DNA of 37,240 nt. Origin: an uncultured SAR116 cluster alpha proteobacterium. GTDB taxonomy: Bacteria; Pseudomonadota; Alphaproteobacteria; Puniceispirillales; Marisalimonadaceae. Shown one piece after another: positions 8,709 to 30,680 of the stretch (its first letter is position 1; each line of letters opens with the position of its first letter). The notes beneath the pieces were generated by a model. The model was not told the origin of the DNA. It worked only from the letters and a program-made list of their open reading frames with translations, and searched no databases. The position numbers and the translations under genes were made by a program. Where the stretch lies: NCBI GenBank assembly GCA_902592615.1, contig CACJFI010000012.1, positions 1 to 37,240 of the forward strand, given 5' to 3'.

Positions 8709-8728
8709 TACTTATTTTCCTATATAAT

Positions 8729-9823: not shown

Positions 9824-9926
9824 AAAGAATCCCCACAGTTTTTTTAATAAAAATATTAACAACAAGAAAAAATTATATAAGATATAATATATTCAATTAT
9901 TATTAACTTATTATAAAGGAGTGCAA

Positions 9927-14535: not shown

Positions 14536-14954
14536 AGTTTTTTTTGTGGAATAGAATATGTAAGTGAAGCGTGGGCAACAGGCTCGTCAATATCTTCTGA
14601 ATAAATTAAAACATCACCTACACTTAAAGTTTTTCCTAATTTTAAAATTCTGGCTTTACTAGTTAAATTTTTCTCATTTGGTTTCCTTAAAAAATTTATT
14701 GAACAATTAGTTGTAACAGTAAGACTTTTAGGACCTATAACACTTAAAGTTGCTAAATAAAAAGTTACATCTGCTAATAAAAACATTGTTGGGCCCGAAA
14801 CTGTTGCCCCTGGTCTCAAATGATCTTCAGTAATATACATTAGCATTGAAAAAGACTGATCATTTACATCTAATATCTTGAAGTATTTGCTTACTTGAGG
14901 AAATTCTTTATTTAAAAATTTATCAAGACTTTCTTTTGTCATCAGTTTTTGCAT
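14532..14954 (-). CDS. PaaI-family hot-dog thioesterase
   Basis: The protein has 140 residues and a single hot-dog domain of the PaaI/YbgC-like type. The central stretch LRPGATVSGPTMFLLADVTF (46-65) corresponds to the usual HGG...D active-site helix, with SGP in place of HGG and Asp62 kept. NCSINFLRKP (83-92) matches the second conserved strand. Such enzymes hydrolyse acyl-CoA esters. It starts four bases after the stop of the PcaB-like lyase and is the last gene of that minus-strand group, where it could release a CoA product. Confidence 0.75.
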   Translation of the reverse strand: MQKLMTKESLDKFLNKEFPQVSKYFKILDVNDQSFSMLMYITEDHLRPGATVSGPTMFLLADVTFYLATLSVIGPKSLTVTTNCSINFLRKPNEKNLTSKARILKLGKTLSVGDVLIYSEDIDEPVAHASLTYSIPQKKL

Positions 14955-14958
14955 TATG

Positions 14959-16314
14959 TTAGGATAACCTTCTTTTATCTAAAAGTCTCTGTGCCATAGA
15001 AGGGGCAGCTCCTAAGTAATTGGATGGATCTAAAATTTTTAACAAATCTTTCTCATTAAAAAAGTTAGAGATTTTTCTATTTTTTAATAACGTATCTATG
15101 AATGAAATGTTGTTTTTAATTGATTCTCTACAACAGTCATAAACTAAATCGTGTGCAATTTGTCTTCCCATCTTGGGTGCCAGGGCCATCATAACAGACT
15201 CTGCAACAATTAACCCATTGGTTTTATAAATATTTTCTTTCATTTTTTTAGGTGAAACTTCTAAACCTTCTAAAAGATATTTAGCTGAGTTAAGAGATGA
15301 AGAAGCAATCAAAAAAGCGTTAGGAATTGCATTCCATTCTACATGCCACTGACCAGTAGCTCTTTCATGATCAAGGACCATAGCATCTAGCATAGAAGAA
15401 TGATGTTCTCTTAATAGTTTTGAACAAGCCAGCATTACCTCAGAAGAAATAGGGTTTCTTTTTTGAGGCATCGTTGAAGAAGAACCTCGTCCGTGAAGAT
15501 ATGGTTCAGCAACTTCTTGTGTTTCTGTTTGCATCATTAACATCACATCATAAGCTATTTTACCGAGTGATGCAGCAACCATTGCAAGCCAACCAGTTAC
15601 TTCACAAAAATTATCTCTAATAGAATGCCAACTAACGTCAGGAACATTTAAATCTAATTCCTCAGCTAAGGCTGACTGCGTCTTGAGGCCATTACCTTCA
15701 CCTAAAGAAGCAAGCGTTCCTGCTGCTCCAAAAAACGATACAACGAAAACTCGTTCCTTTATTTCTTCCAGTCTTTTGTGATGTCTATCAATCCCAGACA
15801 ACCAGGTAGATGCCTTGTAACCAAACGATATAGGTAAAGCATGTTGCAAATGTGTTCTACCAGCCATAGGTGTTTTAATATGACGCTCAACAATTTTTTC
15901 TAAAGCATCTGAAATTGACTTTAGGTCTTTAGATAATAATTCAAGACCCTTTCTAATTTGAAGGACATCTGCTGTGTCCATAATATCTTGTGTTGTAGCG
16001 CCCCAATGACAAAATTGTCCAAAGTTGCCTTCAACTTTTTCACTTAGTTGTTCGACCAGTGGAAGAATCGGATATCCAACTATAGACGTCCTCCTTTCAA
16101 GTTTTCCCCAATCAATTATCTCTACATTTGCTGCCTGAGTTATTTTCCCCCCAGCTTCTTTTGGTATAATGTTTAACTTTGACTGTGATCTTGCTAAAGC
16201 TGCTTCTACATCTAAATATAACTGTGTAGTACCTTCATCAGAAAATAACAAATGCATTTCTTTTGTTCCAAACATTTCTCCCCATATTTTTGAATTCGTA
16301 ACTAAAGCAGGCAT
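14959..16314 (-). CDS. Fumarase/aspartase-superfamily lyase, PcaB/adenylosuccinate lyase-like
   Basis: The protein has 451 residues. The superfamily signature is GRGSSSTMPQKRNP (275-288). Other conserved regions are HWGATTQD (103-110), GRTHLQHA (152-159) and FGAAGT (195-200) with WH at 229-230, which fit 3-carboxy-cis,cis-muconate cycloisomerase (PcaB) better than biosynthetic PurB. The family adds or removes a carboxylated group across a double bond. The neighbours (crotonase-like enzyme, thioesterase, tautomerase-like protein) point to catabolism of an unsaturated or aromatic-derived acid, but no other protocatechuate gene is present. A purine role is unlikely but not excluded. Confidence 0.8.
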   Translation of the reverse strand: MPALVTNSKIWGEMFGTKEMHLLFSDEGTTQLYLDVEAALARSQSKLNIIPKEAGGKITQAANVEIIDWGKLERRTSIVGYPILPLVEQLSEKVEGNFGQFCHWGATTQDIMDTADVLQIRKGLELLSKDLKSISDALEKIVERHIKTPMAGRTHLQHALPISFGYKASTWLSGIDRHHKRLEEIKERVFVVSFFGAAGTLASLGEGNGLKTQSALAEELDLNVPDVSWHSIRDNFCEVTGWLAMVAASLGKIAYDVMLMMQTETQEVAEPYLHGRGSSSTMPQKRNPISSEVMLACSKLLREHHSSMLDAMVLDHERATGQWHVEWNAIPNAFLIASSSLNSAKYLLEGLEVSPKKMKENIYKTNGLIVAESVMMALAPKMGRQIAHDLVYDCCRESIKNNISFIDTLLKNRKISNFFNEKDLLKILDPSNYLGAAPSMAQRLLDKRRLS

Positions 16315-16332
16315 TTTATATTCCCTATCAAT

Positions 16333-17124
16333 TTAATTTTGGTACCAAGATGCAGCTCTTTTCTCAAGAAAACTATTAAGCCCTTCTTTTGCTTCATCCG
16401 TCATTCTTTTTTGAGAATGTTCAAAAACAAGTTCATCAAATTTTTCTTCAGATAATATTAAACCACTTTCTATTAAAGTTCTTCTTTTTGTTGCTTCCAA
16501 TGCATCTGGAGCACACATCAATAAGTTATCAATAATTGGTTTGACGGTATTTTCAAGATCACCAGTCTTACAAACAAGGTGCACTAACCCCATATCTTTA
16601 GCCTGACTGACATCGAAACGCTCACAAGTAAGAGCATATTTTCTAACATTCCTAACTCCAATACTTGCATTTAAGTGAGGAATTATAATTCCTGCCATCA
16701 CCCCCCATCTAGCTTCAGAAATGGAAAAAATTGAATCTTCACTCGCTATAACTATATCAGCAGCAGCAGCAATTCCAGTGCCACCCCCAAAACATCCGCC
16801 ATGGATCATTGCTATTGTTGGCTTAGGGAATTCAGTAAGACCTTTAATTGCTGAAGCAGTTTTTCTAGAAACTTCTATATTTTCTTTTTGACTAAGATTA
16901 CCAATCTCTTTAAGCCATTGTAAGTCGGCACCTGCTTGAAAATGTTTTCCATTACCTTTAATAATGACTATTCTTACAGAATTGTTTTTATCTAAAGCTT
17001 CAAAACTTTTAATTAATTCAATAATCATGTCACCATTGTATGCATTGTTTTTTTCTGGACGGTTTAAAATAACCTCTGCAATTCCTCTTTCATTTACATT
17101 TGTTAATATGATATTTTCACTCAT
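16333..17124 (-). CDS. Enoyl-CoA hydratase family protein, methylglutaconyl-CoA hydratase-like
   Basis: The protein has 263 residues with the crotonase fold. HFQAGADLQWL (61-71) resembles the AGADLNWM loop of methylglutaconyl-CoA hydratases of the Liu/Atu type. The second loop is HGGCFGGGTG (108-117), and FSISEARWGVMAGIIIPHL (133-151) carries Glu137 in the usual catalytic position. The first catalytic Glu position is Gly117, as in several branched-chain members. It hydrates a branched unsaturated acyl-CoA by family knowledge. It precedes the lyase by 18 bases and follows the tautomerase-like gene. Confidence 0.82.
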   Translation of the reverse strand: MSENIILTNVNERGIAEVILNRPEKNNAYNGDMIIELIKSFEALDKNNSVRIVIIKGNGKHFQAGADLQWLKEIGNLSQKENIEVSRKTASAIKGLTEFPKPTIAMIHGGCFGGGTGIAAAADIVIASEDSIFSISEARWGVMAGIIIPHLNASIGVRNVRKYALTCERFDVSQAKDMGLVHLVCKTGDLENTVKPIIDNLLMCAPDALEATKRRTLIESGLILSEEKFDELVFEHSQKRMTDEAKEGLNSFLEKRAASWYQN

Positions 17125-17597: not shown

Positions 17598-18455
17598 ATG
17601 GAAAATGAAGCGCTTGATATCAATCACTTAAATAAATGGTTAGGTAACATAGAGACTGTAACAGATTATCTTACACCAATTGTTGAACAAAGGTATAGAG
17701 CAACATTAAATATTGATCCAGGCGATCCCAAAATTGGGGAGGACGCAACCTCTGGTTTGCATTGGATGTTAGGTTGGGATTTAAAAAAAAATGATGAACT
17801 TGGTGTGGATTCTCATCCTGCAAGAGGTGATTTTTTGCCTCCAGTCCCACTTCCAAGAAGAATGTGGGCAGGCAGTCAGATCAAAGTAAACAAACCTTTA
17901 AGAGTAGGTGATAAAGTAATTAAAAAATCTAAGGTAGCTGACATAAAACTGAAGGAAGGTAGGACGGGACAGCTTTGTTTTGTTACAGCAGAGTATGAAT
18001 TTTTAGTTGATGAAGATGTAAGATTACATGAACTACATAACATTGTTTACAGAGATGTTACTAAAGCAGGTGGTGGTTCTGGTGTGTCAGACACAATACC
18101 TGAAGATGCCGATTTTACAGAAACAATTTTTATGCATCCAACAATTTTATTTCGTTATTCAGCAATTGGCTTTGTAGGTCATAGAATTCATTATGATTAT
18201 CCATATACTAAAAATGAAGAGAATTATCCTGATTTAATAGTTCATGGTCCCTTACAAGCTACTTTTTTATTAAGAGCAGCCGAAAAACTAAAAGGTAAAA
18301 CGGTAACCTCTTTCAATCATAAAGTTATGGCTCCTGTTTTTGCAAACAGTGACTATATAATTGGTGCAAAAGAAAACACTGATGGAAGTGTAAGTTGTTG
18401 GGGCGCTGTAAAAGGTTCAGGAATGACCATGCAAGCTGAAGCATATTTTGAATAG
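17598..18455 (+). CDS. HTD2/MaoC-like acyl-CoA hydratase, mesaconyl-C4-CoA or itaconyl-CoA hydratase-like
   Basis: The protein has 285 residues, a double hot-dog of the HTD2/FAS1-dehydratase type. The stretches GLHWMLGWD (53-61), PARGDFLPPVPLPRRMWAG (73-91) and YPDLIVHGPLQATFLLR (about 213-229) are the conserved core of mesaconyl-C4-CoA hydratase and of itaconyl-CoA hydratase in bacteria that degrade itaconate. The family reversibly hydrates a C5 enoyl-CoA to citramalyl-CoA. It is the first gene of a six-gene plus-strand operon that also encodes CoA-transferases and a CitE-like lyase, which fits such a pathway. AAAGG lies about eight bases before the ATG. Confidence 0.82.
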   Translation: MENEALDINHLNKWLGNIETVTDYLTPIVEQRYRATLNIDPGDPKIGEDATSGLHWMLGWDLKKNDELGVDSHPARGDFLPPVPLPRRMWAGSQIKVNKPLRVGDKVIKKSKVADIKLKEGRTGQLCFVTAEYEFLVDEDVRLHELHNIVYRDVTKAGGGSGVSDTIPEDADFTETIFMHPTILFRYSAIGFVGHRIHYDYPYTKNEENYPDLIVHGPLQATFLLRAAEKLKGKTVTSFNHKVMAPVFANSDYIIGAKENTDGSVSCWGAVKGSGMTMQAEAYFE

Positions 18456-18475
18456 TTTTTAGAAAAGGATAGATT

Positions 18476-19795
18476 ATGTCGATTACAAAGTTATTTGGTA
18501 GTTATGGATTTAGCACTAAATTAGATAGTTTTAATGATGAAATGAAGTTTTTTGCAAAGATGTCTATACTAGATTGGTGTGGTGTCGCTTATGCAGCTAA
18601 ACAAGAACCAGTTTCCAAAATTGTTTCGGAAATGGTTAAAGAGGAAAATGGTGTTAATCAAGCAAGGGTGATTTCAACTGGTGATGGAGTTTCTTCACGA
18701 GGTGCAGCTTTAGCCAATGGAGCTACTGGTCATGCATTAGATTATGATGACACACACTTTCTTTTTGTTGGTCATCCCACAGCCAGTGCTTTGCCAACTG
18801 CTTTAGCTTTGGGTGAAGAATTAGAATTATCTATAGATAATTTATTGCTCGCATATATGACTGGAGTAGAAGTGTCTACAAGAATTGGTCATATCTTAGG
18901 CTATTCTCATTATAACTCTGGTTTCCATCAAACTGCTACTAGTGGATCATTTGGTGCAACAATTGTGGCATCAAAATTACTAAATTTGAACAAGGACCAG
19001 ACAATAAATGCGCTTGGTTTGGTCTCCACAAGAGCGTCTGGAATTAAATCCCAATTTGGCACTATGGGTAAACCGTATCACGCAGGAATGGCTGCATCAA
19101 ATGGTATTGAGGCCGCCAAATTATCTAAACTTGGATTTGTGTCAAGAGAAGATGGTATTGAGTGTGATCAAGGTTTTTTCCAAACTCATGGTTGGGATAA
19201 AAAAACTCCCACAAGAGCTTTAAAAAACTTAGGAACAGACTTCCTGTTTCCTGAAATTAAGTATAAATTTCATGCTTGTTGTCATGGTTTACATTCTTTC
19301 CTAGAAGCACTTGAGGAATTAAAACAAGAAAACAACTTTAATCCTGAATCAATTGAAGAGATTGCGATTGAAACTAATCCTTCGTGGCTCAAAGTGTGTA
19401 ACATTCAAGAACCTAAAACTGGTCTAGAATCAAAATTCTCTTATAAATTAACAGCCGCCATGTCAATTTATGGTAAAGACACAGCTGACTTGGGCACTTA
19501 CAACGATGATATTTGTTTTGATGATAAAATGAATAATATTAGGGATAAGGTAAAGGTTATACCTAACGATCAATTGAGCAATACTCAGTCTTTAATTTCT
19601 ATTAAAGATGGTTCTAGGGATGTTAAAAACAAACATGACTTATCTGATAAGATTGATCAAAATATTTTAGAAACTAAAATTGTTAATAAATCTGCTTCGT
19701 TACTATCCAAAAATAAATCTTATGAAATTTCTAAAATGTTAAATTCACCCTCTGAAAGTAAAGTTACTTCTCTAGTAGATTGTTTGGTCAGCTAA
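18476..19795 (+). CDS. MmgE/PrpD family protein (copy 2)
   Basis: The protein has 439 residues. Active-site-like residues are present: DYDDT (89-93), His100, GFHQTA, and Lys-His in GKPYHAGMAA. The later Lys lies in YKFHACCHG, where the other two copies have KPY. The C-terminal region after about 340 is more divergent than in the other copies. It lies inside the C5-dicarboxylate-type operon, one base overlapping the CoA-transferase gene. A PrpD-family gene also sits in the Pseudomonas itaconate cluster, as I recall. The family catalyses dehydration, isomerisation or decarboxylation of tricarboxylates and related acids. Confidence 0.85.
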   Translation: MSITKLFGSYGFSTKLDSFNDEMKFFAKMSILDWCGVAYAAKQEPVSKIVSEMVKEENGVNQARVISTGDGVSSRGAALANGATGHALDYDDTHFLFVGHPTASALPTALALGEELELSIDNLLLAYMTGVEVSTRIGHILGYSHYNSGFHQTATSGSFGATIVASKLLNLNKDQTINALGLVSTRASGIKSQFGTMGKPYHAGMAASNGIEAAKLSKLGFVSREDGIECDQGFFQTHGWDKKTPTRALKNLGTDFLFPEIKYKFHACCHGLHSFLEALEELKQENNFNPESIEEIAIETNPSWLKVCNIQEPKTGLESKFSYKLTAAMSIYGKDTADLGTYNDDICFDDKMNNIRDKVKVIPNDQLSNTQSLISIKDGSRDVKNKHDLSDKIDQNILETKIVNKSASLLSKNKSYEISKMLNSPSESKVTSLVDCLVS

Positions 19796-20949
19796 TGGAA
19801 AAACAAAACTCTGGAAAGGATTTAGAGGGTTTATTAGTCGTGACCGTTGAGCAAGCTGTAGCTGCTCCTTATACATCTTGTAGACTAGCCGATGCCGGTG
19901 CAAGGGTTATAAAAGTTGAGAGACCCGAGGGTGATTTTGCCAGAAACTATGACAGTAACGCGCTTGGTAATAGTGCTTATTTTGTGTGGTTAAATAGAGG
20001 CAAAGAGTCAATTTCTCTGGATCTTAAAAATACTGAAGATTTTGAACTATTTGAGAATATTATTTCAAAATCTGACATTTTAATTCAAAATTTAGCACCA
20101 GGGGCATTTGATCGTCTTGGTCTGGATTTAAATGAATTGAGAAAAAAATATCCATCTTTAATTACATGTTCTATTTCTGGGTTTGGAGACGAAGGTCCAT
20201 ATAAAAACCAAAAAGCTTATGATATGTTAATTCAAGCTGAAACTGGCGTTATTGATATAACTGGCCTTCCAGATAAAAATGGGATTGATGGAAGAGCAAA
20301 GGTTGGGCCATCAGTCTGTGATATATCTGCAGGGATGACAGCTTATCAAGCAATATTGCAAGCTCTTATTAAAAGAAGTGTAAGTGGAAAAGGCAGACAC
20401 ATATCAGTGTCCATGTTCAACTCGCTCGCAGATTGGATGAACCCTTTTTATCTTGGTTATGTTTATAATAAAAAAATTCCAAAAAGAAACGGTATGACCC
20501 ACCCAATAATTGTTCCTTATGGAGCATATAATTGTAAAGATAATTTGACTATTTTAATTGCTATACAAAATGATCGAGAATGGGTGAAATTATGTAAAAT
20601 TGTATTAAACGACGAAACCATGATTAATGACACTCGCTTTAAAACTAACTCAGACCGTGAAGCTAACCGAGAATTAACAGAAAAAATTATTCAAGATAAA
20701 TTTATTACTTTTGAACGTGAGGAATTAATTGAAAAACTTGAAGAAGCAAGTGTTGCTTATGGAAGAATTTCCGATATGGAACAATTGAAAAACCATCCTC
20801 AAAATAATTTTTTAGAAATTGAAACTAAAAATGGCAAAGTTAAAGTTTTAGGTCCAGGCGCAATTCATGACAATTTTATACCAGAAGTAAATAAAATGCC
20901 CGAATTAAATGAACATGGAAAAAAAATTAGAGCTGAATTTAGTTCTTAA
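19795..20949 (+). CDS. CaiB/BaiF family CoA-transferase (copy 2)
   Basis: I place the start at ATG 19795, overlapping the previous stop as TAATG; an upstream TTG at 19780 is less likely. The product has 384 residues. CRLADAGARVIKVERPEGDF at the N-terminus and the catalytic Asp in GPSVCDISAGMTAYQA define the family. In this context (hydratases, CitE-like lyase and TRAP transporter) it is a candidate itaconate or mesaconate CoA-transferase using succinyl-CoA or an intramolecular CoA shift. Substrate is inferred from neighbours only. Confidence 0.88.
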   Translation: MEKQNSGKDLEGLLVVTVEQAVAAPYTSCRLADAGARVIKVERPEGDFARNYDSNALGNSAYFVWLNRGKESISLDLKNTEDFELFENIISKSDILIQNLAPGAFDRLGLDLNELRKKYPSLITCSISGFGDEGPYKNQKAYDMLIQAETGVIDITGLPDKNGIDGRAKVGPSVCDISAGMTAYQAILQALIKRSVSGKGRHISVSMFNSLADWMNPFYLGYVYNKKIPKRNGMTHPIIVPYGAYNCKDNLTILIAIQNDREWVKLCKIVLNDETMINDTRFKTNSDREANRELTEKIIQDKFITFEREELIEKLEEASVAYGRISDMEQLKNHPQNNFLEIETKNGKVKVLGPGAIHDNFIPEVNKMPELNEHGKKIRAEFSS

Positions 20950-20966
20950 AAAAATAGGAGATAAAT

Positions 20967-21779
20967 TTGAGAAGTATTTTATTTTTACCAACGGATAAAA
21001 TTGAGAGGTTGCCCAAGGCTATAGGATCTGGAGCTGATAAAGTTATTTTCGACTTAGAAGATGGTTTGGCCCATGACAAGAAAGCTATTGGACGATCTAA
21101 TTTTGCTGATTTAGCAAATAGAAATTATGATGGTCAATCAGATATGCTTTTATTACGTATTAATGCTTTAGATACTGAAGAATATAAAGAAGATATAAAA
21201 TTGTTAAGGTCTTTACCTTTTCTTCCTTACTCTATCGCTGTTCCTAAAATTGAGTCTGCTGATGAATGTAGAACTTTTTTAAAAGATCTTGGCACTGATA
21301 TATTAGTTTTACCTCAAATTGAAACGCCGCGGGGTATAGCAAATATCGAAAGCTGGGATTGTTCAAATATAAAGTTTTCTGGGATTGGATTTGGGTCAGC
21401 AGATTATTGTGCATCAACCGGTGGTGATATGGGCAAAGCTAGTTTAGCATATGGAAGGGGTAAAATAATTAACGCTGCGGCATTATATAATACAATTGCT
21501 CTTGACGGTGTTTGGCTAGACTTCAGAGACCCTGAAGGATGTAAAGAAGAGACATTATATATCAAAACCATGGGTTTTAAAGGACGTTTTGCTATACATC
21601 CAGATCAAATTAAACCTATTCATGATGCTTACAGACCTACTACAGAAGAATTGGAATGGGCAAAAGGTGTTTTAGAAGAAGCAAAAACAGCAGGTTCTGG
21701 TGCTTTTAAATATCAAGGAAAAATGGTTGATGCACCTGTATTAGCGGTTGCAAGGCTGATTATATCAAGGGAGGATTAA
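20967..21779 (+). CDS. HpcH/HpaI-type CitE-like CoA-ester lyase (citramalyl/malyl-CoA lyase-like)
   Basis: The start is a TTG at 20967, six bases after AGGAG; RSILFLPTD then matches the CitE N-terminus, so the rare start is well supported. The product has 270 residues. Conserved residues are FDLEDG (28-33), Arg64 in LLLRINA, Glu119 in LPQIETPRG, Asp146 in GFGSADY, and KGRFAIHPDQI (205-215). The two acidic residues bind magnesium. The family cleaves beta-hydroxy-acyl-CoA esters, here probably citramalyl-CoA or methylmalyl-CoA to give acetyl-CoA plus pyruvate, or propionyl-CoA plus glyoxylate. It abuts the MaoC gene with no gap. Confidence 0.88.
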   Translation: MRSILFLPTDKIERLPKAIGSGADKVIFDLEDGLAHDKKAIGRSNFADLANRNYDGQSDMLLLRINALDTEEYKEDIKLLRSLPFLPYSIAVPKIESADECRTFLKDLGTDILVLPQIETPRGIANIESWDCSNIKFSGIGFGSADYCASTGGDMGKASLAYGRGKIINAAALYNTIALDGVWLDFRDPEGCKEETLYIKTMGFKGRFAIHPDQIKPIHDAYRPTTEELEWAKGVLEEAKTAGSGAFKYQGKMVDAPVLAVARLIISRED

Positions 21780-22319
21780 ATGGATGAAAATTCTTATGGA
21801 ATTAAAAAAATAGGACCCCAAAGGTATAGAGAAGATCCAGGTAGATATTTTGAAGATTTTCAGATAGGTGATGTTTATGAGCATTGGCCTGGTAGGACAG
21901 TAAGCGAAGCTGATAACATATGGTTTACAAATTTAACAATGAATACTCACCCAATTCACTTTGACGCAAATTATGCTTCTAAATCTGAGTTTGGAAAATA
22001 TTTGGTAAATTCTGCATTTACTTTAGCCCTTGTAACAGGGATGTGTGTTAGTGGTACTAGCCAAAAAGCAATAGCTAATTTGGGATGGGAAGAAATAAAA
22101 ATACCTGCACCTGTGTTTGTAGGTGATACATTATATTCTGAAACTGAAGTTTTAGACAAAAGAGAATCAAAATCAAGACCCACACAAGGTATTGTAAAGG
22201 TAAGACATATAGGTAAAAATCAAGACAAAGTTGTTGTAATGGATATGGTGAGATCTTTCTTGGTTGCCAAACGTGGGCATAGTGTAGTTGACGAAATTAT
22301 TAATGAAGCAGCTAATTAG
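21780..22319 (+). CDS. MaoC-family acyl-CoA hydratase
   Basis: The protein has 179 residues, a single hot-dog MaoC domain. The motif NLTMNTHPIHFDANYA (51-66) aligns with the R-hydratase motif D-x-N-P-[LIV]-H, with Asn55 and His57 in place of the usual Asp and Asn, while His60 and Asp62 are kept. This form recurs in mesaconyl-CoA and methylmalyl-CoA dehydratase-like proteins. The ATG follows the lyase stop directly and GGAGG lies inside the lyase end. It probably supplies a second enoyl-CoA hydration step in the C5 pathway, possibly on a different CoA isomer from the first hydratase. Confidence 0.85.
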   Translation: MDENSYGIKKIGPQRYREDPGRYFEDFQIGDVYEHWPGRTVSEADNIWFTNLTMNTHPIHFDANYASKSEFGKYLVNSAFTLALVTGMCVSGTSQKAIANLGWEEIKIPAPVFVGDTLYSETEVLDKRESKSRPTQGIVKVRHIGKNQDKVVVMDMVRSFLVAKRGHSVVDEIINEAAN

Positions 22320-22330
22320 AGTATAACACC

Positions 22331-23536
22331 ATGGATTTACCTTTATCAGGAGTCAAAGTAATTACTTTTGAGCAATATGGGGCGGGACCATTTGGCACTC
22401 AATACTTAGCTGATCTTGGAGCAGAGGTAATTAAAGTTGAACCAGCAGGTACAAGTGGTGATTATCTGAGAGCAATTGGTCCTTATTTTATCGATGGTGA
22501 AGATAGGAATTCAGCTTCAAGTATTTTTTTTCAAGCTCTTAACAGAAATAAAAAAAGTATAACTTTAGACATACTGTCTAATGATGGAAAAATTATTCTG
22601 CAAAAATTAATTGAGAATGCTGATGCAGTTTCTAACAATTTAAGAGGAGATGTTCCTGAAAAACTTGGAATAACCTATGATCAGCTTAAGAAACATAACA
22701 AAGCAATTGTTTCAGCACATTGTTCTGCTTATGGCAGAGAGGGGCCAAGAAAAAATTGGCCAGGATATGATTATCTTATGCAAGCAGAGGCCGGTTATTT
22801 TTCGCTTACAGGTGAGCCTAATGGTCCTCCCTCAAGATTCGGACTTTCAATTGTAGATTATATGTCTGGACTAACTATGTCATTTGGGCTCGTAAGTGCG
22901 ATATTGTCTGCCAGGGCTACGGGTGTTGGAAGAGATGTAGATGTCAATTTGTTTGATACGGCCATGTTTAATCAAAGTTATATGGCAGCTTGGACACTAA
23001 ACACTGATTTTAAGAGTGAAAGATTAGACCGGTCTGCTCATCCAATTTTAGTTCCATGTCAATTATATAAAACTAAAGATGGATGGATATTTTTGATGTG
23101 TAACAAAGAAAGCTTTTGGCCTGTATTATGTAAAAAACTAGATAGGGAAGATCTAATTGATAATTCAAAGTTTGTTAATTTTTCATGCAGGCAAAAAAAT
23201 AGAGACGAAATAACTAGAATTCTTGACGAAGAATTAATGAAAAAAAATACATCTGAATGGCTAGATGAATTTGGTGGAATTGTTCCAGCTGCTCCAATTT
23301 TAAATTTAAAGGAGTCTCTGGAAAACCCATTTTTAAAAGATAGAAAAAATATCCAAAAATTAAAAACAAAAAGGGGGGTTGATATCAGTTTATTGAAAAC
23401 ACCAGTAAATGTGAAAGATAGCAGCTTTCAAGATAAAACTGCCCCAGAACTTGGTGAAGACACAGATGATGTACTTAGAGAGATTGGTTTTACAGGTGAA
23501 CAAATAATCACTTTCAGAAATAAAGGCACAATCTAA
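22331..23536 (+). CDS. CaiB/BaiF family CoA-transferase (copy 3)
   Basis: The protein has 401 residues. It begins LPLSGVKVITFEQYGAGPFG and QYLADLGAEVIKVEPAG. The catalytic Asp is in SIVDYMSGLTMS, and the C-terminal APELGEDTDDVL is typical. It differs clearly from the other two copies. As last gene of the six-gene operon it may activate the imported acid, while copy 2 handles an intermediate or the CoA shift between C1 and C4. The two roles cannot be told apart from sequence. A 109-base gap then separates it from the TRAP genes. Confidence 0.88.
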   Translation: MDLPLSGVKVITFEQYGAGPFGTQYLADLGAEVIKVEPAGTSGDYLRAIGPYFIDGEDRNSASSIFFQALNRNKKSITLDILSNDGKIILQKLIENADAVSNNLRGDVPEKLGITYDQLKKHNKAIVSAHCSAYGREGPRKNWPGYDYLMQAEAGYFSLTGEPNGPPSRFGLSIVDYMSGLTMSFGLVSAILSARATGVGRDVDVNLFDTAMFNQSYMAAWTLNTDFKSERLDRSAHPILVPCQLYKTKDGWIFLMCNKESFWPVLCKKLDREDLIDNSKFVNFSCRQKNRDEITRILDEELMKKNTSEWLDEFGGIVPAAPILNLKESLENPFLKDRKNIQKLKTKRGVDISLLKTPVNVKDSSFQDKTAPELGEDTDDVLREIGFTGEQIITFRNKGTI

Positions 23537-23581
23537 ACAGAATTACATAACATATTAACTAATTAATCGGTTTTATTGCAA

Positions 23582-23598
23582 TTAAGGGTTTACCTTAA
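23582..23598. promoter_or_regulatory. Inverted repeat upstream of dctP, possible operator
   Basis: TTAAGG (23582-23587) and CCTTAA (23593-23598) form a perfect six-base inverted repeat around GTTTA, 47 bases before the dctP ATG. It could be an operator near the dctP promoter. No U-run follows, so it is not a terminator of the upstream operon. Confidence 0.35.
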
Positions 23599-23645
23599 AA
23601 GCATATCGTTATAGGTTGTGATTCTAAATATTTGGAGGAAATTTA

Positions 23646-24815
23646 ATGAAATTAAATAAACTATCATTGTTAGGTGCGGCTGGCGCTGTTGCCCTAACTT
23701 TTGCGGCTGGAACCAATTTAGCTTTAGCTGATGGACATGCTGTAAAACCTATTAAAATGCGTTGGGCTTCTGACCATTCTGGTCCGCCACATCCTGCAGC
23801 TATCGCAGAAATGTTTTTTGCAGAGCAGGTTGAGAAGAAAATTCCTGGAAGTAAAGTTCAAATTTATTGGGCTAAGTCACTTTATAACGTTCCAAAAGGA
23901 ACTCAAGCTCTTACAAAAGGTAATCTTGAGATGATGACTGGTCAATTTGGTAAAACTTCAAGTGTTGAGCCCTATGCTAATACGATTGTTGGTGCTGGAA
24001 AATTAACATCTCCTGGTGCTATAAATGGACTTGATGGAACAAAAACTTTCGCTCAATTAAAGAAAGTTTTTAACGACAAGCATGGTATTACTATTTTTGG
24101 TTCTGGTCACTTGAGTATGTATATGGGTGCTGGGGCTGTTAAAAGTAGAATGCTAGTTCCTGCTGACTTTTCTGGTAAAAAAGTTAGAAGTATGGGACCT
24201 GCTGAAAATGCATTGTTAGGAGCCTTAGGTGCAAACCCAACAACAATGGCTTTTGGTGATGTTCCACCTGCTCTTCAAACAGGTGTTATTGACGGATTGC
24301 TAACAAGTCTAGGTGGATTTAATGCTACTAAGGAACAAGCTCCATATTTCACAGTTGCTGGAATTAATGGAATTGTTGGCGATTACTATTGGATTGGTGC
24401 ATCAAATAAATGGTGGGCTACTCTTGATAAAAAACAACAGGCAGCTTTAACTGACATTATTATGAATGATTTTATTCCTTATCAAAAGGCTATTAACTTT
24501 TGTAATGATAAAAGATTAGTTGATAAGTTTAAAGTAACTGATAAAAGCGCACCTGGAATTTATGTGATGAGTCCTAAAGAAGCTGGAGTTCTTCAAGCAA
24601 AAGAAGGTGGCGCAACTAACAACTGGATTAAATCTAAAGTTGATGATACTGGAGATAAAATGGTTGATCAATTCACAGCTGAAGCAAAAGCTTTAGTTGC
24701 AGCCAATCCAATGGGATCAAGTGCCTTAGAAAAGACTGATTGCACAGCGTTCGCTTCAGATTTTGCTAAATTCGCAAAAGGAACAGCTTTATATAAGAAA
24801 AAGTCAAGAAAATAA
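23646..24815 (+). CDS. dctP: TRAP transporter periplasmic binding protein DctP
   Basis: The protein has 389 residues, longer than the usual 330 or so. A cleavable signal peptide is clear: KLNK, a hydrophobic stretch, then LALADGHA. The DctP core is recognisable, with KGTQALTKGNLEM (about 80-92), the Arg in KKVRSMGP that usually holds the ligand carboxylate, and GDVPPALQTGVIDG. The C-terminal extension has two Cys (NFCNDK and KTDCTAF) that could form a disulfide. It delivers an organic acid to DctQM. TTTGGAGGAAA gives a strong ribosome site. A terminator-like hairpin follows the stop, which would favour high binding-protein expression. Confidence 0.93.
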   Translation: MKLNKLSLLGAAGAVALTFAAGTNLALADGHAVKPIKMRWASDHSGPPHPAAIAEMFFAEQVEKKIPGSKVQIYWAKSLYNVPKGTQALTKGNLEMMTGQFGKTSSVEPYANTIVGAGKLTSPGAINGLDGTKTFAQLKKVFNDKHGITIFGSGHLSMYMGAGAVKSRMLVPADFSGKKVRSMGPAENALLGALGANPTTMAFGDVPPALQTGVIDGLLTSLGGFNATKEQAPYFTVAGINGIVGDYYWIGASNKWWATLDKKQQAALTDIIMNDFIPYQKAINFCNDKRLVDKFKVTDKSAPGIYVMSPKEAGVLQAKEGGATNNWIKSKVDDTGDKMVDQFTAEAKALVAANPMGSSALEKTDCTAFASDFAKFAKGTALYKKKSRK

Positions 24816-24823
24816 ATTAATTT

Positions 24824-24856
24824 AAAAAGGCCTGGCTTGAGTCAGGCCTTTTTTTT
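24824..24856 (+). terminator. Intrinsic terminator between dctP and dctQ
   Basis: AAAAAGGCCTG (24824-24834) pairs with CAGGCCTTTTT (24843-24853) around GCTTGAGT, followed by further T residues. It sits 9 bases after the dctP stop and three bases before the first possible dctQ ATG. As the only separation between dctP and dctQM it is probably a leaky terminator that lowers membrane-subunit expression. Confidence 0.85.
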
Positions 24857-24858
24857 AG

Positions 24859-25419
24859 ATGATTATCATGGATAATTTTTACAAAATCTCAAGCAAAATT
24901 CAGTCTTCTATTACTGCTATATTGGGCAGGTGTTCTGCTTTTCTAATGATAGCTGTTACACTATTTGCGTTAGCTGAAATTATTAGAAGATATATCTTTG
25001 GTGTTGTTTTTGAATGGGGTCAAGATGCTGTTATTTACATGATGGTTTCTTCAGTTGCTTTTTACATTTGTGTAACACAAATTAATAGAAATCACCTCGT
25101 AATGACTGCTGTTTTACAACTCTTAAATGCAAAAGGGTTTCACAGAACAGTAGGTTTTTGTAAAATTTTTGTTTCTCTCTTTGTTTCTGTATTCACTGGT
25201 TCTCTAACTTATACAGCATATTCAACAATTGAGTATTCAATCCAGATAGGCGAAAGAACTGAAAGTTTATTTTTATTTATGTGGCCATTTTATTTTATAT
25301 TGGCTCTGGGTATGGGATTAATGTCTTTAGTCGCAGCTCTTCAATTTATTGAAGATATCCATAGTTACATAAAGGGTGATCATTTTACTGCAGAAGTTGA
25401 AGCTGCTACAGATGTTTAA
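24859..25419 (+). CDS. dctQ: TRAP transporter small membrane subunit DctQ
   Basis: The protein has 186 residues with four hydrophobic segments (about 27-47, 60-80, 102-125 and 145-167). RRYIFGVVFEWGQDAVIYMM (about 38-57) is the characteristic DctQ stretch. Two starts are possible, ATG 24859 or ATG 24868 (MDNFYKISS); neither has a clear Shine-Dalgarno because the dctP terminator lies directly upstream. It forms the membrane complex with DctM and follows dctP, which fixes the assignment. Confidence 0.88.
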   Translation: MIIMDNFYKISSKIQSSITAILGRCSAFLMIAVTLFALAEIIRRYIFGVVFEWGQDAVIYMMVSSVAFYICVTQINRNHLVMTAVLQLLNAKGFHRTVGFCKIFVSLFVSVFTGSLTYTAYSTIEYSIQIGERTESLFLFMWPFYFILALGMGLMSLVAALQFIEDIHSYIKGDHFTAEVEAATDV

Positions 25420-25443
25420 TACTTATAATACAGGAAATGTATA

Positions 25444-26727
25444 ATGTGGGCTTTAGGAGGATCTTTATTCAGTTTATTATTTGCTGGTGCCCCAATAGGT
25501 ATAGCTCTAGCAGGTGCTACAGGTCTTCTCGTACTCTTTGATGATTTTTTAACATATAGTACTTTATTTGAAGCTTTTTTTAGTTTTCTTACTAAATATA
25601 CTTTAGTAGCTATCCCATTTTTTATTTTTGCTGGTTTTTTAATGGAAAAGACTGGTTTAGTAGCAAGTCTTTTTAAATTTGCTGATTCAGTAGTTGGATG
25701 GGTTCCGGGTGGTTTTGCTTATGCAACATTACTTGCTGCTGTTTTATTTGGAGCAATCTCTGGTTCATCAACAGCAATGGCTGCTGCAATGAGTGTGATA
25801 GCTTATCCCGAGTTAATTAAAAGAGGTTATCCAAAATGGATGGCTGCGGGAGTCATTGCTTCTGCAGGTGGTATTGCGCTTCTTATACCACCAAGTATAA
25901 CTTTGATACTTTTTGGTGTCATAACAGAAATGTCTATAGTTGATTTGTTTTTCGCAGGTATAATTCCTGGATTGATGTTGGCTATGAGTGATGCAGTTAT
26001 AATTGTTAGCGTCTCACTTTTTATTAAATTACCTCGAGGGAAATTTGATTTATGTGAAGTTTGGAGGTGTTTCAAAGAAGCTTTACCTGCTTTGTTAATG
26101 CCTGTAATTATTTTAGGTGGTTTATACGGAGGTTTATTCACTCCAACTGAAGCAGGTGCTGCCGCTGCTAGTTATGCTCTTTTTTATGGATTAATCTTTA
26201 AAAGAAAAACATTTACAAAAGAATTAATGCCGACAACTCTTAGGACTATGAACCTTACTGCAGTCGTATTTTTTCTATTGGGTTGCGTTGGTATCTTCCA
26301 ATTTTATCTTGCAAATATGGGTTGGCCTCAAATGATTGCTGAATGGGCTGGTGAGTTGGGTCTGAGTAAAACAGGATTTTTATTCGCACTTATGGGATCG
26401 TTACTTTTTTTATCAATGTTTCTAACAGGTGTAGCTATTTTAGTCTTAACAGTACCTATATATTTCCCGGTTGCTTTGGCTCTTGGCGTGGATCCAATTC
26501 ATTTAGGAATTTTAACAGCATTATGTATAGAAATAGGAAGTGTTATCCCACCCGTTGGTTTAAATTTGTTTGCTGTTAGTGGAGTAACTGGTTTACCAGT
26601 TACAACCGTTATAAAAGGATCATTTCCTTTCTGTATTTCTGACACAGTTGTATTAATTATAGTGCTTCTATTCCCAGCTTTAGCACTTACACTTCCAGAA
26701 CTATTAGTTGAATCTCACTTTAATTAA
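25444..26727 (+). CDS. dctM: TRAP transporter large membrane subunit DctM
   Basis: The protein has 427 residues with about twelve membrane segments, standard for DctM. Conserved features are the N-terminal GAPIGIALAGATG, FAGFLMEKTGL, FGAISGSSTAMAAAMSV, IPPSITLILFGVITE and the late EIGSVIPPVGLNLF. It is the sodium-driven permease subunit of the TRAP system. AGGAAA precedes the ATG. The stop codon shares TTAA with the stop of the opposing amidase gene. Confidence 0.93.
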   Translation: MWALGGSLFSLLFAGAPIGIALAGATGLLVLFDDFLTYSTLFEAFFSFLTKYTLVAIPFFIFAGFLMEKTGLVASLFKFADSVVGWVPGGFAYATLLAAVLFGAISGSSTAMAAAMSVIAYPELIKRGYPKWMAAGVIASAGGIALLIPPSITLILFGVITEMSIVDLFFAGIIPGLMLAMSDAVIIVSVSLFIKLPRGKFDLCEVWRCFKEALPALLMPVIILGGLYGGLFTPTEAGAAAASYALFYGLIFKRKTFTKELMPTTLRTMNLTAVVFFLLGCVGIFQFYLANMGWPQMIAEWAGELGLSKTGFLFALMGSLLFLSMFLTGVAILVLTVPIYFPVALALGVDPIHLGILTALCIEIGSVIPPVGLNLFAVSGVTGLPVTTVIKGSFPFCISDTVVLIIVLLFPALALTLPELLVESHFN

Positions 26728-27998
26728 AGTTCTAAGAGAGCTTTTGCATAATTTAAAAGTTGATCATCTTCTCCAAACCTGGCCACAAGTTGACACCCAA
26801 TTGGTAATTCTTGTTTACCCTTAAATAGGGGTAGGGTGATACACGGATTTCCATTTAGAGACCACGTCGTATTAAATATTGGTGATCCTGTATATTCTAA
26901 TCCTTTTAATGCTTCGCCAGGTGCACTAGGAGTAATAATTAGATCTATTTCATTGAAGATAGCGTCAATTTGATTTTTGAGAATAAAAAGTTCTTTCATT
27001 GCAATTTTGTATTGTTTGTTGGTGACTTGATTTCCATCGTTAAGCCTTCCGTTTCTTAACTGATCACTTAATTCATCATAATGATTAAATCTTTCATGAG
27101 ATATTGATCTTTTAAATTCATATCCACTTATATCTAAATGTAGTGTATCAGATTTTAAAATAAGTTTATCAATCTCTAAATCAATTACATTTAATTTCTC
27201 TGAACGAAGTGAATTAACAAAATGCTCAAAAGCCTCCTTTGTAGAATCGTCAGTTTTATCCCAGTGAGGTGTCCTAACAAATCCAATTTTAATTTTACTT
27301 AAATCTACTTTTTTTATTGAAACTAACTCTTCTTCGAGAAGGATTGATCGAAAAAGTGCAATATCATCTACTGACCTAGACATCAGTCCTAAAGTGTCAA
27401 TTGACGGAGAGTTTGGTAGAATGCCTGATTTGTCAAAATCACCATAAGATGGTTTGTACCCAATAATTCCGCAGTAAGCAGCAGGTCTTATTACCGATCC
27501 AGTTGTTTGTGTACCAAAACAAACTGGTGCCATCATAGACGCTACGGCGGCAGCTGAACCAGAACTTGAGCCACCAGGTGTAAAATCTATATTATGTGGG
27601 TTTGTTGTTAATCCAGGAGCTCTATGTCCTAATTCAGTAGATACAGTTTTGCCAATAAAAATACATCCTGATTGTTTTGCAACAGCTACCGAAGCAGCGT
27701 CTCTCATAGGAACATTATTTTGATAAAAATTAGTTCCAAATCCAGTTGGTGTATTGCTTGCATCAATTATATCTTTAATTCCGAAAGGAATTCCAAGTAG
27801 TGATTCATCATTTTCATTATCTAGTAGCTTAGCTTTTTCTAAAGCTCTATCTTCATCCAAGTATACCCAAGCTTTTACGGAGTGTTCTTTTTCACGTATT
27901 CTTTCGAAGCAACTTTGTACCCACTCATACCTTGATAATTTATTCTCACTAATAAGTTTGATTGCATCCGTTGCGGTTAACTCAAAAGGAATTGTCAT
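26724..27998 (-). CDS. Amidase signature family protein
   Basis: The protein has 424 residues, slightly shorter than GatA-type amidases. The Ser-cisSer-Lys triad is complete: Lys75 in PFGIKDII, the cis-Ser in PGGSSSGSAAA (141-151), and Ser168 in TQTTGSVIRPA. It hydrolyses an amide or possibly a urea-type bond. It is the only minus-strand gene inside the putative C5 catabolic region and diverges from the third MmgE/PrpD gene across a 105-base spacer with a 12-bp palindrome. No gatB or gatC is near, so a tRNA amidotransferase role is unlikely. Confidence 0.88.
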   Translation of the reverse strand: MTIPFELTATDAIKLISENKLSRYEWVQSCFERIREKEHSVKAWVYLDEDRALEKAKLLDNENDESLLGIPFGIKDIIDASNTPTGFGTNFYQNNVPMRDAASVAVAKQSGCIFIGKTVSTELGHRAPGLTTNPHNIDFTPGGSSSGSAAAVASMMAPVCFGTQTTGSVIRPAAYCGIIGYKPSYGDFDKSGILPNSPSIDTLGLMSRSVDDIALFRSILLEEELVSIKKVDLSKIKIGFVRTPHWDKTDDSTKEAFEHFVNSLRSEKLNVIDLEIDKLILKSDTLHLDISGYEFKRSISHERFNHYDELSDQLRNGRLNDGNQVTNKQYKIAMKELFILKNQIDAIFNEIDLIITPSAPGEALKGLEYTGSPIFNTTWSLNGNPCITLPLFKGKQELPIGCQLVARFGEDDQLLNYAKALLEL

Positions 27999-28021
27999 GG
28001 TGTTTTCTCATATGATATTAA

Positions 28022-28033
28022 TAAGATATCTTA
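28022..28033. promoter_or_regulatory. 12-bp palindrome between divergent genes, possible operator
   Basis: TAAGATATCTTA is a perfect 12-base palindrome between the amidase ATG (27998) and the MmgE/PrpD ATG (28104). Its placement in a divergent promoter region suits a dimeric regulator, but it is AT-rich and no regulator gene lies nearby. Confidence 0.35.
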
Positions 28034-28103
28034 ATGATTATTTTTTAGTTTTGTAAAATGAAATTTTAGTTTAACCTTTTCAATATATTTTGGGGAGAAA
28101 TAA

Positions 28104-29486
28104 ATGGAAAATATGACTGAAAAGTTTGCTGAGTTTTGTGCTGAAATTAGATACGAAAATTTATCTCCAGAGGTTATAAAAAGAACAAAATTGTTAATTC
28201 TTGATACTGTTGGAATAATAATACGAGCAAGACATGATGCAGAATCAACTGCTAGTTTAGTCGCAGCAATCGACAGATTAGAAATGAGTAATGGAAGTTG
28301 CCAAGTATTCTCAGATAAAAATAGTTACTCTCCAAGTGCAGCGGCACTACTTAATGGAACACTAGCTCATTCTCTTGATTTTGATGACACTCATGCAGAA
28401 GCCTCTTTACATTCCAGTGCCCCAATACTCTCCGCTGCTTTGGCTGCAGCACAAATGAATAAATCATCAGGACAAGAGTTAATAACGGCATGTGTGGCTG
28501 GTTATGAAATACAAATAAGACTTGGATTAGCTGGAGGCTCGTCAGCACATTATAAAAAAGGATTTCATCCAACTGCTACATGTGGTGTGTTTGGTGCTGT
28601 AGCTTCAGCGGGCTACCTTATGGGCTTAACAAAAGATCAGTTTGTTTCTGCATTTGGAATAGCCCTAAGTCAATCAGCTGGATCGATGCAATTTTTAACA
28701 GATGGCGCTTGGACAAAAAGATCGCATGTAGGACAAGCAGCACAGAACGGTCTAAATTGTGCAACAATGGCGGCGGAAGGTTTCAAAGGTCCTTCTCAAG
28801 CTTTTGAGGGTCAGTGGGGTTATTTACATGCATACGCTTCAGGAGGAGATTTAAAAAAAGCATTGGAAGGTTTAGGTAGCAAATTTGAAACACTTAACTT
28901 AGGAGTAAAACCTTATCCATCTTGTAGATATAGTCATGCAGCAATTGATGGGATAATAGATCTAAAAAAAGAATTGGATTTCTCTATTGATGATTTGGAT
29001 GATATTGATATTGGTCTGTCCGAAACAGCATTGAATATAATTGGTTATCCATTAGAGGATAAACAAAATCCTAAAAGTATTGTTGATGGTCAATTTTCAA
29101 TGCCTTTTTGTGCTGCTGTAGCTGCTAAAAGTGGTGGATTAAAGTGGGATGATTATAAAGATCACTTAAATAACAGTGACACACTAGCGCTGTGTAACAA
29201 AATAAAAGTAAATCCTGATAAAGATGCTGAGAAGTGCTGTCCAGAATTTATGAGTGCAAAGGTAAAAATGGTTGTAAAAGGAAAGACTTATGAAAAGTTT
29301 GTAAAGATTCCAAAAGGAGAGCCAGAAAACTTTATGAAAGACGAAGAATTTATATCAAAGTTTAAAAGTTTAACAGAACCATATTTATCAAATGAAAGAG
29401 TTAACCATTTGACAGATTTAATGCTTAAAATTGATCAAGCAAATAATGTCAGTTCAATATTTGAGTATAGTCATATAGATCTGTAA
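28104..29486 (+). CDS. MmgE/PrpD family protein (copy 3)
   Basis: The protein has 460 residues. It carries DFDDT (92-96), His103, GFHPTATCG, Lys-His in TKRSHVGQAA, and the Lys of VKPYPSCRY, so the set of residues that line up with the cis-aconitate decarboxylase active site is complete. It is closer in layout to copy 1 than to copy 2. GGGGAGA precedes the ATG. It is followed after 21 bases by an acyl-CoA dehydrogenase gene, probably in the same transcript. Substrate is unknown. Confidence 0.86.
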   Translation: MENMTEKFAEFCAEIRYENLSPEVIKRTKLLILDTVGIIIRARHDAESTASLVAAIDRLEMSNGSCQVFSDKNSYSPSAAALLNGTLAHSLDFDDTHAEASLHSSAPILSAALAAAQMNKSSGQELITACVAGYEIQIRLGLAGGSSAHYKKGFHPTATCGVFGAVASAGYLMGLTKDQFVSAFGIALSQSAGSMQFLTDGAWTKRSHVGQAAQNGLNCATMAAEGFKGPSQAFEGQWGYLHAYASGGDLKKALEGLGSKFETLNLGVKPYPSCRYSHAAIDGIIDLKKELDFSIDDLDDIDIGLSETALNIIGYPLEDKQNPKSIVDGQFSMPFCAAVAAKSGGLKWDDYKDHLNNSDTLALCNKIKVNPDKDAEKCCPEFMSAKVKMVVKGKTYEKFVKIPKGEPENFMKDEEFISKFKSLTEPYLSNERVNHLTDLMLKIDQANNVSSIFEYSHIDL

Positions 29487-29507
29487 TCATTAATTTAGGA
29501 GATATTA

Positions 29508-30680
29508 ATGAACGAACATAAAATAATTGAAGTCGAAAATGAAAAATCAGACTCTGAAGATAATTTAATAATAGAATCTGTAAATAAATTCTTAGAAAAA
29601 AATGTAAAGCCTTATGTAAAAGAATTTGAGTCACAAGATAAATATCCACAAGATATTGCTGATAAAATGGCAGATTTAGGTCTCTTTGGTGCTACAATTT
29701 CTCCTGAGTATGGTGGTTTAGGTTTGTCAGCAGTTACTTACTCAAAAATTGTAGAAAATGTGTCAGCCGTGTGGATGTCAGTTTCTGGTATTTTCAACTC
29801 TCATCTGATAATGTGTGCTGCTGTAGAAAGATTTGGCACTGAAGAGATGAAAAGATACTATCTTCCTAAGTTTGCAACTGGAGAGATAAGAGGTGGTATC
29901 GCACTTACAGAACCAGATTGTGGTACTGACCTTCAATCGATAAAAACCAAAGCAAAAAAAGTTGGGAACGAATATATTATTGATGGTACAAAAACATGGA
30001 TTACAAACTCAGTTCAAGGAACTATTTTAGCTGTTTTAGTAAAAACGAATACTGAAATTCAACCAGCCCATAAAGGTATGAGTTTAATTCTCGTTGAAAA
30101 GAAAGATGGATTTGTATCTAGAAAACTCAAAAAATTGGGTTATAGAGGTATTGATACAGGAGAAGTTCAGCTTGAAAATGTAAAAGTACCTATTTCTAAC
30201 TTGATCGGCGAAACAGAAGGCAAGGGTCTTAAACAAATTTTGGCGGGCCTAGAACTGGGAAGAATTAATGTAGCTGCACGTGGCGTTGGTGTGGCTAGAG
30301 CCTCTCTTGAAGATTCAATAGAATATGCAAAAATAAGGAAGACATTTGGAAAACCAATTAGTGAACACCAAGCAATTCAAATTAAATTAGCTGAGATGGC
30401 AACTAAACTTGAAGCTTCTAGATTATTAACTGAACAAGCTGCAAAGGCATATGATTCTGGTAATAGATCAGATTTACAAGCCGGAATGGCAAAGCTTTTT
30501 GCTACTGAAACAGCGTTGTTTAACTCTACAGAAGCAATGAGAATTCATGGTGGATTTGGGTATTCACCCGAGTATAACATTGAGAGATATTATAGAGATG
30601 CTCCTTTGTTGGCTATTGGTGAGGGAACAAATGAGCTGCAGAAATTGATAATAGCTAAGCAACTTGTGTCTGAAGATTAA
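29508..30680 (+). CDS. Acyl-CoA dehydrogenase
   Basis: The protein has 390 residues with the full three-domain acyl-CoA dehydrogenase fold. ALTEPDCGTDLQSIKTKAKK (about 125-144) is the FAD-binding signature region, and the catalytic base is Glu372 in GEGTNELQ, the position used by short- and medium-chain and glutaryl-type enzymes. FGKPISEHQAIQ and MRIHGGFGYSPEYN are also typical. It oxidises an acyl-CoA to the 2-enoyl-CoA and passes electrons to ETF. Next to a C5-dicarboxylate pathway, a methylsuccinyl- or glutaryl-CoA-like substrate is a reasonable guess. AGGAG precedes the start. Five bases separate it from the opposing azlD stop. Confidence 0.92.
   Translation: MNEHKIIEVENEKSDSEDNLIIESVNKFLEKNVKPYVKEFESQDKYPQDIADKMADLGLFGATISPEYGGLGLSAVTYSKIVENVSAVWMSVSGIFNSHLIMCAAVERFGTEEMKRYYLPKFATGEIRGGIALTEPDCGTDLQSIKTKAKKVGNEYIIDGTKTWITNSVQGTILAVLVKTNTEIQPAHKGMSLILVEKKDGFVSRKLKKLGYRGIDTGEVQLENVKVPISNLIGETEGKGLKQILAGLELGRINVAARGVGVARASLEDSIEYAKIRKTFGKPISEHQAIQIKLAEMATKLEASRLLTEQAAKAYDSGNRSDLQAGMAKLFATETALFNSTEAMRIHGGFGYSPEYNIERYYRDAPLLAIGEGTNELQKLIIAKQLVSED

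Follow-up and report, generated by a model that had tools for sequence, protein, structure and literature searches.

Which acid does a marine bacterium take up and break down with a set of genes that, by its content, resembles a known itaconate cluster? The question is raised by positions 17598 to 30680 of a 37,240-nt stretch of DNA (the window), which is contig C12 of the 1.72 Mb, 84.6% complete genome of an uncultured SAR116 cluster alphaproteobacterium. A first-pass annotation, made from the sequence alone, described the locus as one for uptake and degradation of itaconate or mesaconate. All of the genes that it named lie where it placed them and match the families that it gave (by Pfam and NCBIfam models, DctQ by position only), and related structures were sought in the PDB. 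The locus is nevertheless an orthologue of neither known itaconate cluster. At about even confidence, and on the strength of comparisons between sequences, we read it as a hybrid catabolic locus for a branched C5 dicarboxylate (the methylsuccinate, mesaconate and itaconate family) or a close substituted-succinate analogue, in which MaoC would be the hydratase and Ich would have been retooled. The block itself is real and is conserved, and its role is most likely catabolic.

Two Sources of Genes

The core of the locus is a colinear block (17598-26727) which runs in one direction with intergenic gaps of -16 to 109 bases. It begins, on the plus strand, with ich for an Ich-family protein of the FAS1/HTD2 type (17598-18455), a first MmgE/PrpD gene (18476-19795; PF03972/PF19305) and caiB1 for an Ict-type class III CoA transferase (19795-20949). 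These are followed by genes for a CitE-like CoA-ester lyase (20967-21779; PF03328), a RipB-related MaoC hydratase (21780-22319) and a further class III CoA transferase, caiB2 (22331-23536), and the block closes with a TRAP transporter. The start of caiB1 is likely the ATG at 19795, which overlaps the stop codon of prpD (TAATG), and not the TTG at 19780 of the listed open reading frame.

To judge from the trees and the gene order, these genes are drawn from two sources, with ich, the first prpD and caiB1 of Pseudomonas type (source A) and citE, maoC and caiB2 as a separate cassette (module B). For source A, caiB1 is 42% identical to the Ict of Pseudomonas aeruginosa and 54% to that of Shinella, and it falls with the former in the Ict clade (Shimodaira-Hasegawa-like approximate likelihood ratio test, SH-aLRT, 100). 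Both caiB1 and the first PrpD group with Ich-linked genes of relatives from the same taxonomic order (L047, L048) and of the Paracoccaceae strain La6. The Ich protein is 37% identical to P. aeruginosa Ich and 43% to Shinella Ich, and its best PDB match is an itaconyl-CoA hydratase (8khg/8huc, E 1.5e-50). For module B, the trees of MaoC (100/99), CitE (SH-aLRT 100) and caiB2 (SH-aLRT 98) each return the same sister module from Rhodobacteraceae and Hyphomicrobiales, which makes a joint transfer of the three genes as a cassette probable. The CitE, PrpD and large CaiB trees were built quickly, carry a single support measure and include some long branches. The caiB2 product is also 52% identical to an Azospirillum CaiB whose gene adjoins maoC, acad and prpD. 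As an identity for the transferases, the 2-methylfumaryl-CoA isomerase of the 3-hydroxypropionate bi-cycle (TIGR04253, curated score 725) was set aside, with scores of 29.2 bits for caiB1 and 71 for caiB2.

The order ich-prpD-citE-maoC-caiB2 is kept on 43 of the 45 SAR116-type contigs that were fetched with MaoC, so the arrangement is not due to chance; the exceptions are a rearranged (L071) and a truncated (L086) contig. The caiB1 gene is found on 36 of these contigs and is absent from nine, including the truncated one. Among 136 genomes of the order that were scanned, 46 encode a close relative of MaoC (E at most 1e-40), and all 46 belong to one family. Within the genus, the in-locus Ich is present in 33 of 37 genomes (that of the window included) and a second Ich, of 51-54% identity, in 28. 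On two draft contigs (L071 and G015:C21) the order within the locus is partly inverted or duplicated, and these rearrangements are probably assembly chimaeras. In the portions of the literature on SAR116, itaconate, mesaconate and TRAP transporters available to us, no paper on such a locus was found.

The Altered Ich and the Intact MaoC

The feature that sets the in-locus Ich apart is a short motif. Homologues were collected from every locus examined (135 places, of which three short or interrupted ones were dropped, leaving 97 distinct sequences) and sorted by their identity to the window protein and not by the motif. Every one of the 42 sequences with at least 75% identity carries Val at position 193 together with Gly at position 191 (V-type). 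The other 55, all at 53% identity or less, have Asn at position 193 without exception (N-type) and Thr at position 191 in 54 cases, with Ser in the remaining one. The motif His (position 198) is kept in all 97. The motif reads G-F-V-G-HRIHYD in the locus, in place of T-F-N-G-HRIHYD. V-type Ich keeps 50 of 56 conserved columns, and the ratio of nonsynonymous to synonymous substitution rates (dN/dS) of its gene is 0.03-0.17 against five relatives, dS being near saturation in the distant pairs, which shows that V-type ich is under purifying selection.

What Ich has lost, MaoC retains. When deep alignments were compared with hhalign (probability 88.7, E 2.5e-6), N183 of P. aeruginosa Ich paired with N55 of the MaoC encoded in the window, and N55 in turn corresponds to the motif Asp of PDB 1q6w, the MaoC motif (N-T-H-P-I-H-F-D) being intact. 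We take this Asn or Asp residue to be catalytic in (R)-hydratases (D31 and H36 in PhaJ). Ordinary hydratase activity has thus probably been lost from the in-locus Ich, which may now serve solely as an enoyl-CoA isomerase or handle another ester, while the hydration would probably be done by the unrelated MaoC. One genome of 99% completeness (G013) has the V-type as its sole Ich with MaoC present, which favors MaoC as the hydratase.

A Second Site for Ich and Ict

Within the family, V-type and N-type Ich form sister clades (SH-aLRT 99 for V, 95 for N and 100 for both together), and so do the in-locus and second-site Ict-type transferases (100/100). By these trees, ich and caiB1 arose within the family by duplication of an Ich/Ict pair that relatives carry elsewhere. 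An Ict-type gene was found in 46 of 57 family genomes searched, and in 45 of these it is single. In genus g1, 35 of 39 genomes have one such gene each, which shares a contig with the window-type locus; in one of them (G015) it lies, inverted, about 6 kb from maoC. In genera g440 and g442, nine of 16 genomes have one Ict-type gene, each adjoining a second Ich of 48-51% identity (the context was inspected in three of the nine). Genus g441 holds a genome with the gene at both sites (G759) and another with the in-locus gene only (G760). The pattern points to one shared Ict activity for both Ich sites, with gaps in draft genomes as the chief caveat, and the presence of just one Ict-type gene, now at the one site and now at the other, makes the two look metabolically coupled.

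These results bear on the first-pass annotation, which had called the transferase and the hydratase duplicated and proposed that the extra copies let both CoA isomers of mesaconate be handled. There are two of each, but caiB1 and caiB2 are 30% identical over 353 residues, so the pair is not a recent duplication, and Ich and MaoC are members of different families. The two-isomer idea is weakened by the loss of an invariant motif residue from the in-locus Ich, and further by the sister genera, whose locus is without caiB1 and whose Ict-type gene stands beside the second Ich elsewhere.

Proposed Route and Its Alternatives

Gene content and order, their conservation, the clades to which the proteins belong, the lost Asn and the duplication of Ich and Ict within the family are observed; the reactions, the substrate and the division of labor between MaoC and Ich are what we infer from them. 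The TRAP transporter would import the dicarboxylate, the PrpD proteins would invert or isomerize the C2 center of the free acid, and a CaiB transferase would move CoA from succinyl-CoA onto it. If the substrate is saturated, the FadE3-type dehydrogenase would form the enoyl-CoA. MaoC would then hydrate the enoyl-CoA and CitE would cleave the resulting 3-hydroxyacyl-CoA, with acetyl-CoA and pyruvate as products if that intermediate is citramalyl-CoA. A link of this hydratase family to C5 chemistry is suggested by 52 maoC loci outside SAR116 (35 from the genome scan, nine plasmid hits and eight from a family search; a non-random set with several short stretches), five of which (L118, L120, L124, L127, L159) carry on the same stretch an Mcd-type homologue with 60-66% identity to one of three queries.

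Several observations weigh against this reading. CitE falls outside the clade with P. aeruginosa Ccl in a quick tree; it is 34% identical to that enzyme and scores 165.8 bits with the RipC_Ccl model (NF038242), below the cut-off of 375. MaoC likewise lies outside the RipB clade, in a tree with only two RipB rows, and scores 233.1 bits with RipB_Ich (NF038241), below the cut-off of 340. Citramalyl-CoA is therefore not established as the intermediate. Both PrpD proteins lie outside the Msi clade (31% identity each to P. aeruginosa Msi), and the dehydrogenase, at 32% identity to P. aeruginosa Mcd, is not an Mcd orthologue. At 23% identity, which leaves the alignment unsure, the solute-binding protein DctP differs from IctP at V34, V35, K41, S91, Q171, N209 and N213. 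A shallow hhalign comparison of Ich with MaoC (probability 22) left the motifs unaligned, and only the deeper one aligned them. Related MaoC modules also keep other company, as in the archaeon Halalkalicoccus (L149), where the tricarballylate dehydrogenase TcuA and a PrpF-domain protein are encoded next to maoC. Finally, gaps may account for absences of Ict or of the second Ich, since most of the family is represented by draft genomes.

Such company leads to the thought that the same enzyme classes act on some other substituted dicarboxylate or amide, such as tricarballylate or aconitate via citryl-CoA or an acid of the 3-methylglutarate type via 3-hydroxy-3-methylglutaryl-CoA (HMG-CoA), Ich and Ict being an evolutionary addition. 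We regard this as possible, if somewhat unlikely. It would fit the CitE and MaoC clades, which are separate from those of the Ccl and RipB sequences sampled, the amidase that recurs near MaoC modules, the Halalkalicoccus neighbors, an HMG-CoA lyase gene adjoining the module in Aminobacter (L137), and caiB2, whose best NCBIfam model is succinate-glutarate CoA-transferase at a score far below the cut-off. It fits poorly with caiB1 in the Ict clade, with Ich in the itaconyl-CoA hydratase family, with MaoC relatives that accompany Mcd homologues, and with the single Ict-type gene placed at one of two sites. A narrower form of the hybrid reading, which we consider unlikely, is that the roles of Ich have been split in SAR116, V-type Ich being a dedicated isomerase of itaconyl-CoA and mesaconyl-C4-CoA, with its capacity for hydration lost, and the unrelated MaoC the hydratase; this would be a third type of pathway, whose components resemble those of the two convergent ones.

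A plain itaconate or mesaconate locus, functionally orthologous to PA0878-PA0886 and carrying a redundant transferase and hydratase, would account for the homology of Ich and Ict and for the TRAP, PrpD and acyl-CoA dehydrogenase content. It is quite improbable in view of the invariant Asn lost from Ich, of a CitE, dehydrogenase, PrpDs and DctP that are non-orthologous or only partly alike, and of the Mcd homologue and second Ich/Ict site elsewhere in the family. The same lost residue, Asn in every N-type sequence, together with a MaoC that could replace Ich, might mark V-type Ich as a relic being lost from an operon that works without it. The low dN/dS (subject to the saturation noted above), the conserved columns and the retention of the motif His in every V-type copy (42 of 42) speak against decay, and we consider it very improbable. 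If the hybrid reading is true, bacteria with small genomes in the sea maintain a pathway specifically for branched dicarboxylates, which have received little attention as a pool in seawater, and the locus shows a fusion of two convergent itaconate pathways with one enzyme retooled. The locus also serves as a warning that gene content alone is an unsafe basis for annotating such loci as itaconate degradation.

Transporter

The transporter genes are dctP (23646-24815, plus strand; PF03480), for a solute-binding protein with a conserved Arg (R181), dctQ for the small permease (24859-25419, plus) and dctM for the large permease (25444-26727, plus; TIGR00786 at 353.8 bits, cut-off 268.45). DctQ, which had no NCBIfam match at E 1e-10, is assigned from its place between dctP and dctM, colinear in relatives. 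DctM is 39% identical to IctM. DctP shares R169, K94, F192, V234 and Y236 of IctP, with the same caution as to the 23% alignment. With an AlphaFold2 model of DctP (pLDDT 80.4), Foldseek against the PDB returned the TRAP solute-binding fold only, with no ligand indicated; among the best 50 matches, the sialic-acid-binding SiaP stands first and IctP entries stand at ranks 40, 44 and 49.

PrpD Proteins, Dehydrogenase and Amidase

Beyond the block lie an amidase gene to which the first-pass annotation did not refer (26724-27998, minus strand; PF01425, 26% identity to an Azospirillum amidase), a second MmgE/PrpD gene (28104-29486, plus) and an acyl-CoA dehydrogenase gene (29508-30680, plus). The first PrpD has Bacillus subtilis IRG1 and the IDS epimerase as its best PDB matches. 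The second is 42% identical to the PrpD of the Shinella cluster and forms a clade with PrpDs of Shinella, of Bosea and of mcd- or acad-linked clusters (quick tree, SH-aLRT 96). The dehydrogenase is of the FadE3 type (PDB 4iv6, E 4.6e-123), and its identity to five dehydrogenases of other bacteria, encoded in loci linked to maoC or caiB, is 55-62%; in one of these, Tistrella L147, maoC is elsewhere on the plasmid. A FadE3-type dehydrogenase with at least 60% identity to one of two queries was present in 15 of the 52 maoC loci (including L136, itself a query).

A homologue of Mcd, 64% identical to that of P. aeruginosa, is encoded elsewhere in the genome of the window (G000:C5:23177-24325, L207), and such homologues were found in 17 of 21 family genomes searched. 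In the three genomes of the genus and the one g441 genome inspected, the homologue (64-65%) has no Ich, Ict or CitE gene nearby, and its neighbors are housekeeping-like by eye, with an amidase gene about 5 kb off. Its function is uncertain, as its family includes dehydrogenases of Thermus and Limimaricola at similar identity. Amidases similar to that of the window recur beside MaoC modules (L094, L135, L136, L161). In Tistrella (L135) and Halalkalicoccus (L149), amidase and nitrile hydratase genes occur near these modules, hinting at amides or nitriles of the acid as upstream substrates.

Neighboring Genes

On the minus strand, divergent from ich, 14532-17124 encodes a protein of the PcaB/adenylosuccinate lyase family, an enoyl-CoA hydratase and a thioesterase-like protein, syntenic in SAR116 relatives. 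The first of these (at 14959) and the IDS-epimerase-like PrpD would be parts of a candidate iminodisuccinate pathway; no match to this lyase-family protein was found at the Ich loci in the order relatives L047-L049. The MmgE/PrpD N-terminal model matches three places in the genome, all within the window. The third PrpD lies in 3352-9865 (minus strand) with a tripartite-tricarboxylate-type transporter, a TauD-like dioxygenase and an enolase-superfamily protein (labels partly by eye), genes which form a separate cluster for carboxylate uptake and breakdown.

Comparison with Known Systems

The Pseudomonas-type cluster PA0878-PA0886 is ordered ich-mcd-VOC-msi-ict-ccl-ictPQM (PMC12290011, PMC12599236). 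In the former, Ich has isomerase and mesaconyl-C4-CoA hydratase activity, the MmgE/PrpD protein is an (S)-(R)-methylsuccinate isomerase, and the acyl-CoA dehydrogenase acts on methylsuccinyl-C4-CoA. The reference for direct comparison was a locus with the complete P. aeruginosa-type cluster (L143), on what is recorded as a conjugative plasmid of 847 kb from a clinical strain of P. aeruginosa; since the DNA on either side of the cluster resembles chromosome, its presence there may reflect a large duplication or an assembly artefact. A Cupriavidus necator C39 locus (L024) was ruled out as a five-gene cluster, as it had no ccl, mcd or msi match. The enzyme classes of the SAR116 locus, including MmgE/PrpD and acyl-CoA dehydrogenase, match those of the five-gene methylsuccinate/itaconate cluster, and a TRAP transporter is common to both (PMC12290011). 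The close likeness to PA0878-PA0886 that the first-pass annotation had drawn holds for the Ich family, for caiB1 in the Ict clade and for the TRAP, CitE, PrpD and dehydrogenase content. It does not extend to CitE, the dehydrogenase and the PrpDs, which are non-orthologous, and on the unsure alignment DctP would keep only part of the IctP contacts. Unlike the Pseudomonas-type cluster, the SAR116 locus also has an extra MaoC, a second CaiB and an amidase, its block is without a VOC gene, and Val replaces Asn in the Ich motif.

The Yersinia-type RipA-RipB-RipC system is approached by MaoC, 58% identical to RipB of Paraburkholderia caribensis, with a CitE-like lyase adjacent. The SAR116 block differs in being without a RipA-type gene and in a MaoC and CitE that score below the NCBIfam cut-offs. 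In a rip cluster of Serratia entomophila, a CoA transferase of 393 residues is reported to replace RipA (PMC9615192). According to PMC12290011, the Yersinia-type cluster is without methylsuccinate genes; RipB-related MaoC with Mcd homologues in diverse bacteria (the five loci named above) departs from that account.

Clusters of the type maoC-prpD-acad-caiB-citE(-TRAP) (L111-L113, L115, L133, L136, L146) hold the same enzyme set as module B, with dehydrogenases 59-63% identical to that of the window and, in Azospirillum (L136), an amidase, but their MaoC and PrpD belong to other clades and those stretches have no Ich match. In the TRAP/citE-maoC-caiB module (L097, L098, L100-L104, L108), the stretches examined have no match to Ich, PrpD, FadE3-type dehydrogenase, Mcd or amidase, the TRAP genes are divergent (dctM only 36-37% identical to that of the window), and a GntR-like gene, assigned by eye, follows in the four loci inspected (L099, L101, L102, L104). 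Its citE (37-43%), maoC (72-75%) and caiB2 (52-55%) counterparts stand in the same order as in the SAR116 locus.

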